Assembly: GCF_037094495.1 (NCBI RefSeq)
Contig: NZ_CP146612.1
Span: forward strand, 1,674,001 to 1,738,000
Direction of reading: 5' to 3'
DNA length: 64,000 nt
Origin: Dehalogenimonas sp. W
Lineage (GTDB): Bacteria; Chloroflexota; Dehalococcoidia; Dehalococcoidales; Dehalococcoidaceae
Within the stretch, counting starts at the first letter, position 1. Each line of letters starts with the position of its first letter. The notes below the pieces were generated by a model. It made no database searches and had not been told where the DNA came from. It was given only the letters and a program-made list of their open reading frames with translations. Of this stretch, positions 8,682 to 61,298 are shown in pieces. Position numbers and translations under genes: made by a program.

Positions 8682-9923
8682 CTACGCCAAAGCACCCAAT
8701 GCCAAAGCAATCATGACGGCGGCCATCACGATACCAAGGTTAATAACGACTAATAAGGTTATCCATTGCCCGCTGGTAAGCTTTTTGACAACCGCCTTAA
8801 AAAGCGCTTCTTCAGCTTTGCTCAGGGCTTCCTGAGCCGCCAATCTGGCGGCATCGGCGACGTCCTGCGCCCGTTGCGCCGCCTGATCGGCGTGGGCTTG
8901 GGCCGCCTTGGAGATTTCAGCAGCGGCCGTCCGGGCGGATTGTCCGGCGCTTTCAGCACGTTTAATCATATCCTGCAATACGCCTAATGCGGCATGAATT
9001 GCATCGTCACCAGATTTATCAGCGGCCTTGGCTGATGTAATGGCGCTTTCTGCAGTAGTCTGGCCTTTTACAGCAACAGCCATAGCAGCCTTGCCGGCCT
9101 CTTCCACTTTACCGGCAATGGCATCAGAAGCTTTGGCGGCAGACTCAACGGCGTCAGCACCGACTCTTTCTGCATATTCAGTCTTACGGGCAACTTCTTC
9201 AGCAATATGATAAGCCTGGCTGGCGGCCAGTTTAGCTTGTCGGCCAGCTTCATCCGAGTGTCTGGCAGTTTCATTTGATGGATCGTTTCTGGCTGCTTCA
9301 GCGGCAGCAGCAGCTGTTTGGGCTGCTTTGTCAGCAATTCTAGATGCTTCGGCGGCTTTGGCGACAATTTCTTCCAGTGCCTCTTTTGCCGCCAATGCCA
9401 TTTCCTGAAGCTTGAGTGCATTCTCTTCAGCTGCTTTGGAAAGCGCCATTGAAGCTTCACGAGCCGCCATGGAAACTTCTTCAGCTTTTGACGAGGCTTC
9501 TTCAGCCGCATATTTGGCAGCGCGTGCTACTTCCTCTGCCCGCCGGGCAGCTTCCTCAGCGCGTGCCAAGGCTTCATCGGCAATTCTTGAGGCTTCCTCG
9601 GCTTTATGAGAGGCTTCGCTTGATGCGTGGTCAGCATCCTCAGCTTTGTGAGCTGCATCTTCTGCCGCCAGTTTGGCCTCGGCAGCAGCGTGGGCTGCTG
9701 CCCGAGTGGCCGATTCAGCAGCGTCTTCCCCAGCCTTACGGGCTTCTTCAGCTCGTTTTTCAGCAACCAGCGAAGCTCTTGTCGCGGCCTCAGCCGAAGT
9801 TCCTGCACTTTTAGCTGCCTGTTCAGCCTTCTTGGCGGCTTCAGCCGCAGCCCTGATATTGGCATCCATTTCATCCAATATCTGAGGGAGGGGTTTCACC
9901 AGAATATTGGGTTCAGCAACCAT
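8682..9923 (-). CDS. Alanine-rich coiled-coil protein with C-terminal membrane anchor
   Basis: The 413-residue protein is almost entirely Ala, Glu, Lys, Asp, Arg and Ser in seven-residue repeats of the type AEEAxxxA, predicting one very long coiled coil or amphipathic helix. It ends with a hydrophobic segment of about 25 residues after KKLTSGQWI, so the rod is probably membrane-tethered by its tail. No enzyme motif is visible; the composition resembles TolA domain II or LEA/apolipoprotein-like proteins. The chosen ATG has an ideal AAGGAGGT site 5 bases away; the frame stays open another 30 codons to a TTG at 10013 without a ribosome site. It has its own promoter and a long leader. Function unknown. 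Confidence 0.8.
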   Translation of the reverse strand: MVAEPNILVKPLPQILDEMDANIRAAAEAAKKAEQAAKSAGTSAEAATRASLVAEKRAEEARKAGEDAAESATRAAAHAAAEAKLAAEDAAHKAEDADHASSEASHKAEEASRIADEALARAEEAARRAEEVARAAKYAAEEASSKAEEVSMAAREASMALSKAAEENALKLQEMALAAKEALEEIVAKAAEASRIADKAAQTAAAAAEAARNDPSNETARHSDEAGRQAKLAASQAYHIAEEVARKTEYAERVGADAVESAAKASDAIAGKVEEAGKAAMAVAVKGQTTAESAITSAKAADKSGDDAIHAALGVLQDMIKRAESAGQSARTAAAEISKAAQAHADQAAQRAQDVADAARLAAQEALSKAEEALFKAVVKKLTSGQWITLLVVINLGIVMAAVMIALALGALA

Positions 9924-10079
9924 AAGTACCTCCTTATTGGTATATCTACAAGCAGGAGTCTTCTCCGGCTCATAACCACCAATGAACGCTCTCACTTTTT
10001 CCAGCTTGAACAACGCGCTATCTTGTACGCCTACTGGAGTTACCAGAGACGGGCAGACCGGAGGGTACTTTGGTTTACT
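9924..10079 (-). ncRNA. Candidate structured 5' leader (possible riboswitch-like element)
   Basis: Between the mapped-by-eye promoter and the start codon lies a leader of about 156 bases with several self-complementary parts. The 5' arm AAGTACCCTCC (10070-10060) can pair over 10 base pairs with one bulge to the ribosome site GGAGGTACTT (9933-9924), closing the whole leader and hiding the site. Inside are a hairpin at 10034-10046, AUUGGU/ACCAAU (9983-9978 with 9941-9936), a GGAG-AAGA-CUCC hairpin (9951-9970) and UACAAG/CUUGUA (10027-10022 with 9952-9947), the last crossing the AUUGGU helix as a pseudoknot. It matches no riboswitch consensus I recognise. Confidence 0.45.
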
Positions 10080-10085
10080 CTGATT

Positions 10086-10114
10086 AGTGTAGTCTACCGG
10101 AACATGGTAGTCAA
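10086..10114 (-). promoter_or_regulatory. Strong promoter of the coiled-coil gene
   Basis: The minus strand has TTGACT (10114-10109), exactly 17 bases, then TACACT (10091-10086). The predicted start point is near 10079, well upstream of the gene. Confidence 0.65.
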
Positions 10115-10134
10115 TAACCTTTTACCTAATAATG

Positions 10135-10167
10135 AAAAAATATGGCGTATTTTACGCCATATTTTTT
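10135..10167. terminator. Perfect bidirectional terminator
   Basis: The sequence ATATGGCGTA (10140-10149) pairs with TACGCCATAT (10153-10162) across a 3-base loop, flanked by A- and T-runs on both sides. It ends the ferredoxin operon on the minus strand and insulates the coiled-coil gene promoter. Confidence 0.9.
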
Positions 10168-10186
10168 TTCAAAAACGGAGCGGAAT

Positions 10187-11220: not shown

Positions 11221-11244
11221 GAAAACAAAGCCTGAAATCAGGCT
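11221..11244 (-). terminator. Terminator of the CRP/FNR-family gene
   Basis: AGCCTGA/TCAGGCT (11244-11238 with 11235-11229) with a two-base loop is followed by TTGTTTTC. The stop codon of the gene lies inside the stem. Confidence 0.7.
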
Positions 11245-11921
11245 ATATCGGGAGGACCTTCGGCCAACAAGCGCAACTTCACATCATCTTTAATAATAAC
11301 AAGTCCGCGTCGAGAAGAAATAATACCACCTTCCTTGAGGCGACTGAGAAATCTAACCGTAGTTTCTAATGTCGTACCTGACATATCTGCCAAGTCCTGC
11401 CGGGTAAAGGGTAATTCAGAGCCTATTTTGGAAAATAACCGCTCCAGCGTCCGGGCCAGGCGTTGTTCAACCCGCTCACCGGCCATGTCGTGCAAGCGGC
11501 TTTGGGCCTCCCGTAATCTAGCACTTAATATGGCTACCATAGCCATTGCCACCGCTGGATTTCGTTCAATAAAATTATTAAATGTTTTTCGGGAAATCGT
11601 CAGAACTTCCGTCCCGGCAACGGCCTGACAACTGGCAGGATACGGTTTATTTTCCAGAACCGCTACCTCGCCAAATATATCTCCAGGACTAAAAAAAGCC
11701 ACTACCGTCTCCCGCCCCAAGGAGCCGTGCTTCATCACTTTAACCCGGCCCTCGGTCAGCAAATAAAAGAATTCCGGCGGATCGCCTTCCCAGAACAGGT
11801 ATTCACCGGCTTCGTATTTTTTAACTTCGGATTTGGAAACGATTTCAGTCAGGTCCGTTTCTTTTGACGATGAAAATAGATATGCCCGGCGCAAAGACGC
11901 AACTGCTGAAGGTATATCCAT
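11238..11921 (-). CDS. CRP/FNR family transcriptional regulator
   Basis: Residues 20-120 form a cyclic-nucleotide-type beta roll (GEYLFWEGDPPEFFYLLTEG, GDIFGEVAVLENKPYPASC). A long dimer helix and a C-terminal HTH follow (FTRQDLADMSGTTLETTVRFL). The cAMP-contacting Arg-Ser pair of E. coli CRP is replaced by Pro-Ala-Ser, and the N-terminal cysteine cluster of FNR is absent, so the signal is unknown. In the recognition helix the Glu and Arg of FNR/CRP are kept, while FNR Ser212 is Val; this fits a TTGA-type target. It shares one base with the QueG-like gene upstream and sits beside a promoter with such a target. Confidence 0.93.
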   Translation of the reverse strand: MDIPSAVASLRRAYLFSSSKETDLTEIVSKSEVKKYEAGEYLFWEGDPPEFFYLLTEGRVKVMKHGSLGRETVVAFFSPGDIFGEVAVLENKPYPASCQAVAGTEVLTISRKTFNNFIERNPAVAMAMVAILSARLREAQSRLHDMAGERVEQRLARTLERLFSKIGSELPFTRQDLADMSGTTLETTVRFLSRLKEGGIISSRRGLVIIKDDVKLRLLAEGPPDIA

Positions 11922-57233: not shown

Positions 57234-59825
57234 ATGATTCCAGTCCGCCTGAAGCTGAAAAACTTTTTGCCCTACCGGGGGGAGATGCCGCTGTTGACCT
57301 TTGAGGGCATTCACCTGGCCTGCATCTCCGGTGATAACGGGGCCGGTAAAACCTCCATTATTGACGCCATGACCTGGGCGCTGTGGGGCAAATCCCGCCT
57401 GCGCTCCAAGGCCTCCGGCGATGACGACCTGATCACTCAGGGTGAATCCGAAACTGCAGTGACCTTTGACTTCCGGGCCGGTGACGGCCAGGTTTACCGG
57501 GTGGAGCGGCGGCGGACCAAGCCGAAAAGGTCTGCTGGAGCCGGTCACTCTGAACTCAGCCTGTTTCTGGTCAGCGGTGAAGAAGTGACCAATATTTCCG
57601 GCAGCATCTTAAGTGAGACTGCGGCCAAAATAACCAGTCTGCTGCGACTGGATTATGAAACCTTTATCAATTCCGCCTATCTGAGGCAGGGCGAAGCGGA
57701 CCATTTTACCGAACTGACACCCAACAAACGCAAGGAAGTGCTGGGCACTATCCTGAATCTGGATATTTACGAACAGTTGTCGGACAGTGCCAAAGCCAGG
57801 GCCGATCAGGCCGTCGCCGCCAAAAAGATGCTGACCGACAGCATCGGTCTGGAGCAGACCAAACTGGCTCAGGAGCCGGAGATAGAAGCCGCTCTGGCCG
57901 CGGCAACTCAGGATTCTGCCGGTGCCGAAGCTGGCCTGAAGGAAAAACAGGCCGTTCTGGATGAGCTGAAACGCACACGCCAATTGGTGGAGTCTCAGCG
58001 CCAGGCGCTGGGTCAGGCCGAGGCTGGCGTCCGGGAAATCACCGGCGACCTGACCCGCCGGCAGGCCGAACTGGCAGCTAACAGCCAGCGGATAACCCAA
58101 TACCGTCTGGTTATCGCCGAGAAGCCGGCCATTGAAGCCGGATACGCCGGTTTCCAGGCAGCCGTCAAGCGCAATACTGAGTTCAGCCAAAAGCTGATGA
58201 CGCTCCGCCAGTTTGACGGACAGGCCAAAACTCTGGAAGCCGCCGTCAGTGCCGCCCTCAACGATGCCAGGTCCACCCGAGTTCACTGGCAGACCAAGTT
58301 TGATGAACTGGCTGCCCGGGCGGCGGAATTGCCCAAACTTAAAGCCGCCCTTTCCAGTCTGGCCGCTGAGCTGGCGCAACTCGCCGTGAAGGAAAAACAC
58401 CTTGACGGCCTCGCCACTGCCATCCAGCAGCTCAAGACTGAAGACGCCCGGATAGAAGCCGAGACTGCCAGTTTGCGCAAACAACTGGCCGAAAATGACA
58501 GCAAGGCCAAATTACTGGCCGACTCGTCAGAGGCCGCCTGCCCGGTATGTGAAACCGAACTCAGTCAGGACCGGCTGACCACCGTGCTGCATAAATATCA
58601 CAGCGATAAAGCCGCCATTCAGGAGCGTTTGGACAGCCTGTCGGCTTCAGCCCAGGCCAATGAACTGAAGCGCCGCCAACTAACTCAGGAACTGGACGCC
58701 GGAGCCACGCTAAAAGCCGAGAGAACCCGGCTGACCAACCTGGACGCCCGGCTGGGCCGCGATATTGAGGAAGCCGAAAAGGCCGCCGGACGCCTGCCGG
58801 AAGGCGAAAAGCATTTGGCCGACCTCAACCGTAAAATTGAAACCGGTGATTTTGCCCCGGAGGAACGCCGGCGCCTGGCTGAGCTTGAAGCTCAGATTAA
58901 ACAAGTCGGCTATGACACCGAGGAACACCGGCGCACCAGCGAAACACTGGCCGAATTAGAGCCTTTTGACCGGAAACACCGCGAACTGGCCGAAGCGGAA
59001 AAACTGCTGGCCGCCGACGAGCAAGCCCGCTTAGGCATTGAGGCCTCTATCGGTGAACTTAACAAACGCCTGGCCGCCCGGGAGCAGGAAGCCGCCGAAC
59101 TGCGGGCCAAATTAGCCGAACTGCCGGTGGTGGACGACGCGGCGCTGCAAGAGGCGGAACGCCTGGTGGCCGAGCTGAAGCAGCAAGCCACCGCCGCCAC
59201 CCGAACGACCGGGGTGCTCCAGCAAAACCTGGCCCAGTTGCAGGAACTCAAAAAGGATATTGCCGCTAAAACCGCTGAAATCCGCCGCCAGGCCGAAACC
59301 GAGAGCATCTACCGTGATTTAAAAAAATATTTCGGGCGTGACGGCATTCAGGCCGCCTTGATTGACAACGCCATTCCCCGGATGGAGGCTGAGGCAAACC
59401 AGCTCCTGGCCCGGATGACCGATAATCGGATGAGCCTGAAACTGGAACTCCAGCGGCTGACCCGCAAAGGCGAAACCACCGAAACCTTTGACATCAAGGT
59501 CAGCGACGAACTGGGCACCCGTGATTATGACCTCTTCAGCGGCGGCGAGGCTTTCCGCATCAATTTTGCCCTGCGGCTGGCGCTGTCCCGGCTGCTGGCC
59601 GACCGCACCGGCGCGCCCCTGCGGACGCTGATTATTGATGAGGGCTTCGGCACTCAGGACGCCGCCGGCATTGACAAGCTGAAAGAAGCCATCGCCGGGA
59701 TTCAGGACCAGTTTGACTGCATCCTGGTCATCACCCATATTGAGGAGTTCAAGGATGCCTTCCCAGCCCGGATTGAGGTCTGTAAAACCGCGGACGGCAG
59801 TAGTATCCAAGTCAATTATAATTAA
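57234..59825 (+). CDS. sbcC: SbcC/Rad50-type exonuclease ATPase subunit
   Basis: The SMC-like ATPase of the SbcCD nuclease has an N-terminal head with Walker A SGDNGAGKTSIIDAM, two long coiled coils, a zinc hook CPVC (near residue 440) at the apex, and the C-terminal head with the signature FSGGEAFRINFALRLALS and Walker B LIIDEGFGTQD. 863 residues from the ATG at 57234. Its nuclease partner SbcD, usually just upstream, is not next to it: rpoD and a terminator are there. Codons are visibly more GC-rich than in the first 50 kb. Confidence 0.9.
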   Translation: MIPVRLKLKNFLPYRGEMPLLTFEGIHLACISGDNGAGKTSIIDAMTWALWGKSRLRSKASGDDDLITQGESETAVTFDFRAGDGQVYRVERRRTKPKRSAGAGHSELSLFLVSGEEVTNISGSILSETAAKITSLLRLDYETFINSAYLRQGEADHFTELTPNKRKEVLGTILNLDIYEQLSDSAKARADQAVAAKKMLTDSIGLEQTKLAQEPEIEAALAAATQDSAGAEAGLKEKQAVLDELKRTRQLVESQRQALGQAEAGVREITGDLTRRQAELAANSQRITQYRLVIAEKPAIEAGYAGFQAAVKRNTEFSQKLMTLRQFDGQAKTLEAAVSAALNDARSTRVHWQTKFDELAARAAELPKLKAALSSLAAELAQLAVKEKHLDGLATAIQQLKTEDARIEAETASLRKQLAENDSKAKLLADSSEAACPVCETELSQDRLTTVLHKYHSDKAAIQERLDSLSASAQANELKRRQLTQELDAGATLKAERTRLTNLDARLGRDIEEAEKAAGRLPEGEKHLADLNRKIETGDFAPEERRRLAELEAQIKQVGYDTEEHRRTSETLAELEPFDRKHRELAEAEKLLAADEQARLGIEASIGELNKRLAAREQEAAELRAKLAELPVVDDAALQEAERLVAELKQQATAATRTTGVLQQNLAQLQELKKDIAAKTAEIRRQAETESIYRDLKKYFGRDGIQAALIDNAIPRMEAEANQLLARMTDNRMSLKLELQRLTRKGETTETFDIKVSDELGTRDYDLFSGGEAFRINFALRLALSRLLADRTGAPLRTLIIDEGFGTQDAAGIDKLKEAIAGIQDQFDCILVITHIEEFKDAFPARIEVCKTADGSSIQVNYN

Positions 59826-60464: not shown

Positions 60465-61298
60465 ATGTCTCAGATTGAAGGTCTTTTTGATAACGGCTGT
60501 CCGCCCGGCTTGTTTTACCGCGCCCGACTGCCGGAAGCCCCGCCGCGAGGGGTCATTGTGCTGATGCACGGTCTGGCCGAACATTCCGGCCGGTACGACC
60601 ATGTAGTCAACTACCTGTTGGCGCAGGGTTATGCCGTCTGGACTTACGACCAGCGGGGTCACGGCCGCTCGCCCGGGCAGCGTTGTTATGTCAACAGTTT
60701 TGACGACCTGACCGGCGACCTGGCCAAATTCGTGGACAAGGTCAGAGCGGCCCACCCCGGTTTGCCCCTGTTCCTGCTGGGGCACAGTCTGGGGGCGCTT
60801 GAGATTGCCGATTACGCCGCCTCCGGCCCTGCAGGTATCAACGGAGTTGTGCTGTCCGGCCTGCCGCTGAATATTGAACACGGCGTGTCTCACCTGCTGG
60901 TCAAACTGGCCGGCGTGTTCTCCAAAGTGACGCCCCGGCTGGGAGTTCAGAAATTGCCGTCAAATACGCTCAGCCGCGACCAGACCGTTGTTGATGATTA
61001 TGTCAAGGACCCGCTGGTTTACACCGGCAAGATTCCGGCGCGCATGGGCGCGGAGCTTTTCCGCGTTACCCGTTCCATCAAGTCCCGGCTGGCGGACATC
61101 ACCCTGCCGCTGCTGGTGCTTCACGGGGAACACGACCGCATGGCGGATCCGTCCGGCAGCCAGTTGTTATTTGATCAGGCCGCCTCAACCGATAAGGAAT
61201 TGCATATTTTTCCCGGCTGTTACCACGAGATTTTTAATGAGCCCTGCCGGGATACGGTGCTGGGGGTGGTGGGAGAGTGGATGGCGGGACACGGGTAG
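60465..61298 (+). CDS. Monoacylglycerol lipase/lysophospholipase-like alpha/beta hydrolase
   Basis: Motifs: VLMHGLAEHSGRYDHV (oxyanion region), YDQRGHGRSPGQR, the nucleophile elbow LLGHSLGALEIADYAA with catalytic Ser, LHGEHDRMADP (Asp) and CYHEIFNEP (His). No signal peptide. 277 residues from ATG 60465; an in-frame TTG at 60429 is the -35 box itself. This serine hydrolase probably deacylates monoacylglycerol or lysolipids in the cytoplasm. Confidence 0.9.
   Translation: MSQIEGLFDNGCPPGLFYRARLPEAPPRGVIVLMHGLAEHSGRYDHVVNYLLAQGYAVWTYDQRGHGRSPGQRCYVNSFDDLTGDLAKFVDKVRAAHPGLPLFLLGHSLGALEIADYAASGPAGINGVVLSGLPLNIEHGVSHLLVKLAGVFSKVTPRLGVQKLPSNTLSRDQTVVDDYVKDPLVYTGKIPARMGAELFRVTRSIKSRLADITLPLLVLHGEHDRMADPSGSQLLFDQAASTDKELHIFPGCYHEIFNEPCRDTVLGVVGEWMAGHG

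Follow-up and report, generated by a model that had tools for sequence, protein, structure and literature searches.

A candidate structured mRNA leader that buries the ribosome-binding site of a Dehalogenimonas coiled-coil gene

Background

Does the stretch between a promoter and the start codon of a coiled-coil gene in Dehalogenimonas sp. W act as a regulatory RNA, and if so, of what kind? The host genome (G000) is complete, 1.77 Mb, and all positions below refer to the window, the 64,000 nt of this genome that were analysed. The elements of the locus are as follows.

8682-9923, minus strand: coiled-coil gene, the regulated gene of the proposed leader; 413 aa, Ala-rich, with a C-terminal membrane segment and an N-terminal ILVKPLPQILDEMD motif
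9924-10079, minus strand: structured, non-coding 5' leader of the coiled-coil gene (fold z -3.7; stops in orthologues; no Rfam match)
10086-10120, minus strand: promoter AGGTTATTGACTACCATGTTCCGGTAGACTACACT, with -35 TTGACT at 10114-10109 and -10 TACACT at 10091-10086; near-identical in four orthologous loci
about 10134-10169, minus strand: terminator-like hairpin of the intrinsic type at the end of the upstream 4Fe-4S operon, seen in the sequence; its palindrome was picked up as a self-match, too

The coiled-coil gene starts with the ATG at 9923-9921 (minus strand) and is followed on the same strand by thrS, infC, rpmI and rplT. Upstream of thrS, at 8681-8585, we also noted a sequence resembling a promoter, TTGCGC-17-TATAAT, and, before the GTG start, a strong hairpin GCTGAGCC...GGCTCAGC.

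Results and discussion

Distribution of the locus

Orthologues of the coiled-coil gene were found at the same place in three of the seven other Dehalogenimonas genomes, G004, G007 and G005, with protein identities to the G000 protein of 80%, 77% and 68%. The order 4Fe-4S gene, promoter, leader and coiled-coil gene is common to these four. The remaining four genomes have the 4Fe-4S gene, followed neither by a coiled-coil gene nor by a leader; the next gene is infC in G002 and G003 and rpoB-like in G001 and G006 (L094-L097). A wider family of coiled-coil proteins was found in 58 of the 156 Dehalococcoidales genomes searched. Its members (L037-L063 and others) are Ala-rich with an N-terminal K[IL][LM].KPLPQILDEMD and a C-terminal membrane segment, and searches of the protein against Pfam and NCBIfam gave no family.

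Promoter, transcript start and coding status

A first-pass annotation of this DNA had placed a TTGACT-17-TACACT promoter some 156 bases before the ATG. All coordinates of this promoter proved correct, including the 17-base spacer on the minus strand, and the promoter is conserved in four genomes. In the orthologous loci it reads GGTTATTGACTA ... TA-ACT, nearly identical throughout, and the form TTATTGACTA...TAAACT occurs once each in G004, G005 and G007 and at no other site in the eight genomes. From the conserved promoter we infer a transcript start at about 10079, which predicts a leader of 156 nt before the ATG. As the terminator-like hairpin closes the 4Fe-4S operon, the leader should begin from its own promoter. 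Across the four loci the leader is 142-191 nt long, and its sequence diverges while the promoter hardly changes.

Within the promoter spacer there is an inverted repeat CTACC-N7-GGTAG (10110-10094). At the same position G005 has CTATG-N7-CATAG, and partial forms are seen in G004 and G007. The repeat may be an operator; a gene for a Crp-type regulator is located at 11238-11921.

The G000 leader is crossed by an open frame, and a coding segment at 10013-9924 would have spoken against a regulatory RNA. The three orthologues close this frame with in-frame stops 7-13 codons before the ATG, hence the leader is non-coding and the ATG at 9923 is the start. The coding reading of 10013-9924 is ruled out by these stops. 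No conserved upstream peptide was seen in the leaders; a small frame, MNRTFFLSTA, follows a GGAG in the G004 leader (L029, minus strand) and is absent from the other three. The promoter, the terminator-like hairpin and the orthologue stops together give what a translational-control leader should have, namely its own promoter and an untranslated leader.

Folding of the leader and burial of the ribosome site

The minimum-energy fold of 10079-9900 has -60.8 kcal/mol, with a z-score of -3.7 and none of 200 shuffles as good. Among 304 segments sampled across the window the mean fold z is -0.45, and 1% are as low as the leader. Two of the helices in this fold had been proposed by eye.

10060-10079, minus strand: P1 5' arm AGUAAACCAAAGUACCCUCC, in the minimum-energy and centroid folds; remade with compensating changes in G004, not conserved in G005 and G007
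9915-9933, minus strand: P1 3' arm, comprising the Shine-Dalgarno (SD) sequence GGAGG, the spacer, the start codon and codons 2-3; SD unpaired probability in the fold 0.002
9978-9983, minus strand: P2 5' arm AUUGGU, in the minimum-energy fold of G000; loose matches in relatives
9936-9941, minus strand: P2 3' arm ACCAAU, just before the SD, in the minimum-energy fold of G000

The pairing of the early leader with the SD is present as it had been described, AAGTACCCTCC (10070-10060) with GGAGGTACTT (9933-9924) on the minus strand and a single bulged C. The predicted closing helix P1 is longer than was claimed, with 18 pairs between 10079-10060 and 9933-9915, and includes the start codon. In the predicted G000 fold P1 therefore buries the SD, the start codon and codons 2-3. 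Only 0.3% of shuffles let the first 30 nt pair this well with the ribosome site. Opening the G000 ribosome-binding site would cost 17.4 kcal/mol, more than for any other of 30 genes sampled in the window (mean 6.0). The AUUGGU/ACCAAU helix, P2, was likewise recovered in the minimum-energy fold of G000; in relatives it has five pairs with another 5' partner (G004), four pairs (G005) or is interrupted (G007). Very probably, the stretch before the coiled-coil gene is a real folded mRNA leader burying the ribosome-binding site.

A pseudoknot between UACAAG (10027-10022) and CUUGUA (9952-9947) had been proposed as well. The letters are present in G000, but the pairing competes with the better supported hairpin P3 described below and nothing in the three relatives corresponds to it, the longest equivalent Watson-Crick match there being 4-5 bases. 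Being found in G000 only, it was rejected as a conserved element.

Elsewhere in the window other strong folds or buried ribosome sites were observed at 58400 (minus), 60558-60580 (plus), 26140 (minus) and 18160 (minus), with no Rfam match.

A hairpin conserved in four species

Compared with shuffles that keep their own SD, the four leaders have fold z-scores of -3.67, -3.11, -4.86 and -2.83. The element that they share is a hairpin upstream of the SD.

9963-9974, minus strand: P3 5' arm UAUGAGCCGGAG; 12 pairs in four orthologues, alifold z -8.7
9947-9958, minus strand: P3 3' arm CUCCUGCUUGUA, from alifold and alignment pairing

The last ~80 bases of the four leaders were aligned by sequence only with MAFFT. 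In this alignment P3 forms a 12-pair hairpin in all four leaders, 91.3% of the cells being paired and 7 of the 12 pairs changed on both sides. This pairing was matched by 0 of 500 shuffles, and shifting the register by 1-3 columns lowers the share of paired cells to 53% or less. Column-shuffled alifold gave z-scores of -8.7 for the P3 region in four sequences, -5.2 for G005/G007 and -3.0 for G000/G004, on a set of four leader sequences that is below what formal covariation statistics need. The covariation check that had been asked of the first-pass helices thus yields pair-preserving changes in the orthologues, chiefly in P3. This hairpin (9974-9947) had been listed merely as one of "two small hairpins", and it is the part of that description which turned out to be the conserved element. 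Compensatory changes accompany P3 in four of four species, the closing helix being kept in just two of them. Judged from these comparisons, the leader is very probably conserved in shape, not in sequence, in the three relatives, and the conservation of P3 is the strongest evidence for a putative function of the leader as an RNA.

Different strands occlude the ribosome site

The helix between the 5' end and the SD holds as a conserved part in G000 and G004, but not in G005 and G007, where a different strand takes its place. In the G000/G004 alignment all 11 pairs of the closing helix are kept and 2 are changed on both sides, a statistic that is weak alone, as it comes from two sequences and 121 of 500 shuffles score as high. 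The duplex of each 5' end with its own ribosome site amounts to -20.9 kcal/mol in G000 and -25.7 in G004. Exchanging the partners weakens these values to -16.7 and -14.0, and no more than 0.2% of shuffled 5' ends pair as strongly as the native ones.

For the 5' ends of G005 and G007, 17-22% of shuffles pair equally well with the ribosome site. In their consensus fold a GAGUGACU/AGUCACUC helix is directly followed by UCCUUC, paired with the SD around P3; the helix next to this internal UCCUUC, GAGUGAC/GUCACUC, is conserved. The SD unpaired probability is 0.037 in G005 and 0.168 in G007. SD occlusion as such is least convincing in G004, where the fold leaves the SD core 60% unpaired and buries only the spacer and the AUG. 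Opening the ribosome-binding site would cost 13.8 kcal/mol in G004, 14.8 in G007 and 6.3 in G005, the last being near the window average. In the predicted ground states of the four leaders the ribosome site is paired; the SD has a low accessibility in three of them (G000, G005 and G007), and in G004 it is the AUG and spacer that pair. The 5' end of G007 would pair well with the G000 ribosome site (-19.8), though not with its own (-11.5); pairing by the 5' end may therefore be the older arrangement, lost in G007.

Database and literature searches

The leader had been said to fit no known riboswitch, and the Rfam search that followed agrees, as no relevant family matched. At the gathering score the window gave no match to a known cis-regulatory family, and at E up to 5 the leader region of all four loci gave five weak hits, all unrelated; the T-box (RF00230), the L20-leader and the riboswitch families were unmatched in the four loci at this limit. 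A covariance model built from P3 and the SD region scored the four known sites at 66-85 bits and the next best site in the genus at 23 bits. No second copy or regulon was found in the Dehalogenimonas genomes, each leader being a single copy in its genome. Against 65 loci with more distant family members the model found nothing convincing (best 17.9 bits), and the leaders of this set have a mean fold z of -0.88, hence little excess folding. Excess folding is also missing from most leaders of paralogues in these four genomes, whose z-scores are -2.9 (L002), -0.9 (L011), -0.2 (L012) and +0.5 (L013). A plasmid collection gave no match. A narrow distribution is the best reading of these results.

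The literature search returned no description of a leader at the coiled-coil gene. Among structured RNA motifs of the lineage only two were found: the rdhA motif, a weak riboswitch candidate that was predicted computationally, for the most part in the sister genus Dehalococcoides, ahead of reductive dehalogenase genes (PMC11109978), and a Moco riboswitch noted in Dehalogenimonas upstream of moaA/moaC (PMC13390414). Like our leader, the rdhA motif is a structured RNA that precedes a gene and was found by computation; it is set apart by its description, which ties it to reductive dehalogenases and not to a coiled-coil gene in Dehalogenimonas.

Possible mechanism and alternative explanations

Promoter conservation, non-coding nature, excess folding, P3 covariation and occlusion of the ribosome-binding site were established computationally; the transcript start, the switching and any trigger are what we infer. 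RNA polymerase would start at about 10079, and the leader of about 156 nt would fold around the hairpin just upstream of the SD. An upstream strand would pair with the SD and the start codon and so keep the ribosome site shut by default, this strand being the mRNA 5' end in G000 and G004 and the internal UCCUUC in G005 and G007. Something would then open the fold and allow translation of the coiled-coil protein. We consider it reasonably probable that the leader is such a cis-acting translational-control element, with a ribosome site closed by default. Since no aptamer-like core is found in all four leaders and each genome has a single target gene, a protein, perhaps acting autogenously, or a physical cue is more likely than a metabolite as the trigger.

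With 140-190 nt, a paired SD and/or AUG and a conserved SD-adjacent hairpin, the candidate resembles SD-sequestering riboswitches and RNA thermometers; it differs in having no shared aptamer core and a variable occluding strand, and it is known from predicted folds. Autogenous leaders, such as those of ribosomal proteins and the E. coli thrS translational operator, share with it the single target, the structure, the narrow distribution and a conservation of structure above sequence, whereas the target here is an uncharacterised coiled-coil membrane protein and a binding protein is putative.

The leader might instead be a structured 5' UTR that senses no signal and protects the mRNA or sets a low translation rate. 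The missing aptamer-like core in four species, the occluding strand swapped between species and the single copy per genome all agree with this, but an opening cost of 17.4 kcal/mol would burden a gene that needs translation, and paralogue leaders in the same genomes mostly do without excess folding. We regard this as rather unlikely, though the likeliest of the alternatives. About as doubtful, and slightly more so, is a new and fast-evolving class of translational switch in Dehalogenimonas that senses a ligand or a protein, with P3 constant and the occluding strand exchanged. We would be equally hesitant about the form that such an exchange might take, namely the 5' end in one species pair and an internal anti-SD beside an aptamer-like domain in the other.

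A new translational riboswitch for a metabolite or ion seems improbable to us. The layout of an aptamer-sized leader with SD sequestration would suit it, as would the lack of a match to any known class and a 65-nt block (GAGUGACUGGACGC ... GUCACUCCUUC) common to G005 and G007. However, this block is found in those two only, being absent in G000 and G004 even though by protein identity G000 is nearer to G007 than G005 is; there is no copy at any other gene, the target is neither a metabolic enzyme nor a transporter, and the pseudoknot is not conserved. The proposal of a new regulatory RNA stands insofar as the leader has its own promoter, is non-coding, buries the ribosome site and belongs to no Rfam family. 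A metabolite riboswitch is unsupported, because the four leaders have no aptamer-like core in common and each genome has one copy.

Chance, that is an untranslated spacer behind a conserved promoter with coincidental helices, could draw on the few sequences, the frequency of SD-complementary stretches and the open frame crossing the G000 leader. Four independent z-scores of -2.8 or lower and a covarying 12-pair hairpin with a register control make it very improbable, and the alifold and P3 alignment tests have largely refuted it already.

The T-box comes to mind as the tRNA-ligase gene thrS lies downstream and GGUGGGAGCC in G005 recalls stem I. It differs in that Rfam gave no match up to E 5 and the adjacent gene is no amino-acid gene; nor was a T-box bulge pairing with the tRNA NCCA, with a specifier loop, found by the RF00230 model. 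It is extremely improbable that the leader belongs to the control of thrS-infC-rpmI-rplT through binding of ThrRS or L20, which regulate their own synthesis in other bacteria. The coiled-coil gene would then be the first of a transcript in which these genes follow on the same strand, but a promoter (TTGCGC-17-TATAAT) and a leader hairpin seem to belong to thrS itself, G002 and G003 keep infC-rpmI-rplT without coiled-coil gene or leader, and T-box and L20-leader were unmatched at E up to 5.

Conclusions

We regard the translational-control leader of the coiled-coil gene as a solid candidate, new and narrowly distributed, of a familiar kind. If true, it would be an undescribed regulatory leader in the organohalide-respiring genus Dehalogenimonas, located at a gene whose protein family, of uncharacterised function, is widespread in Dehalococcoidales. 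The leader would then also be a small and tractable case of a regulatory RNA in which the ribosome site stays hidden although the strand that covers it has been swapped.
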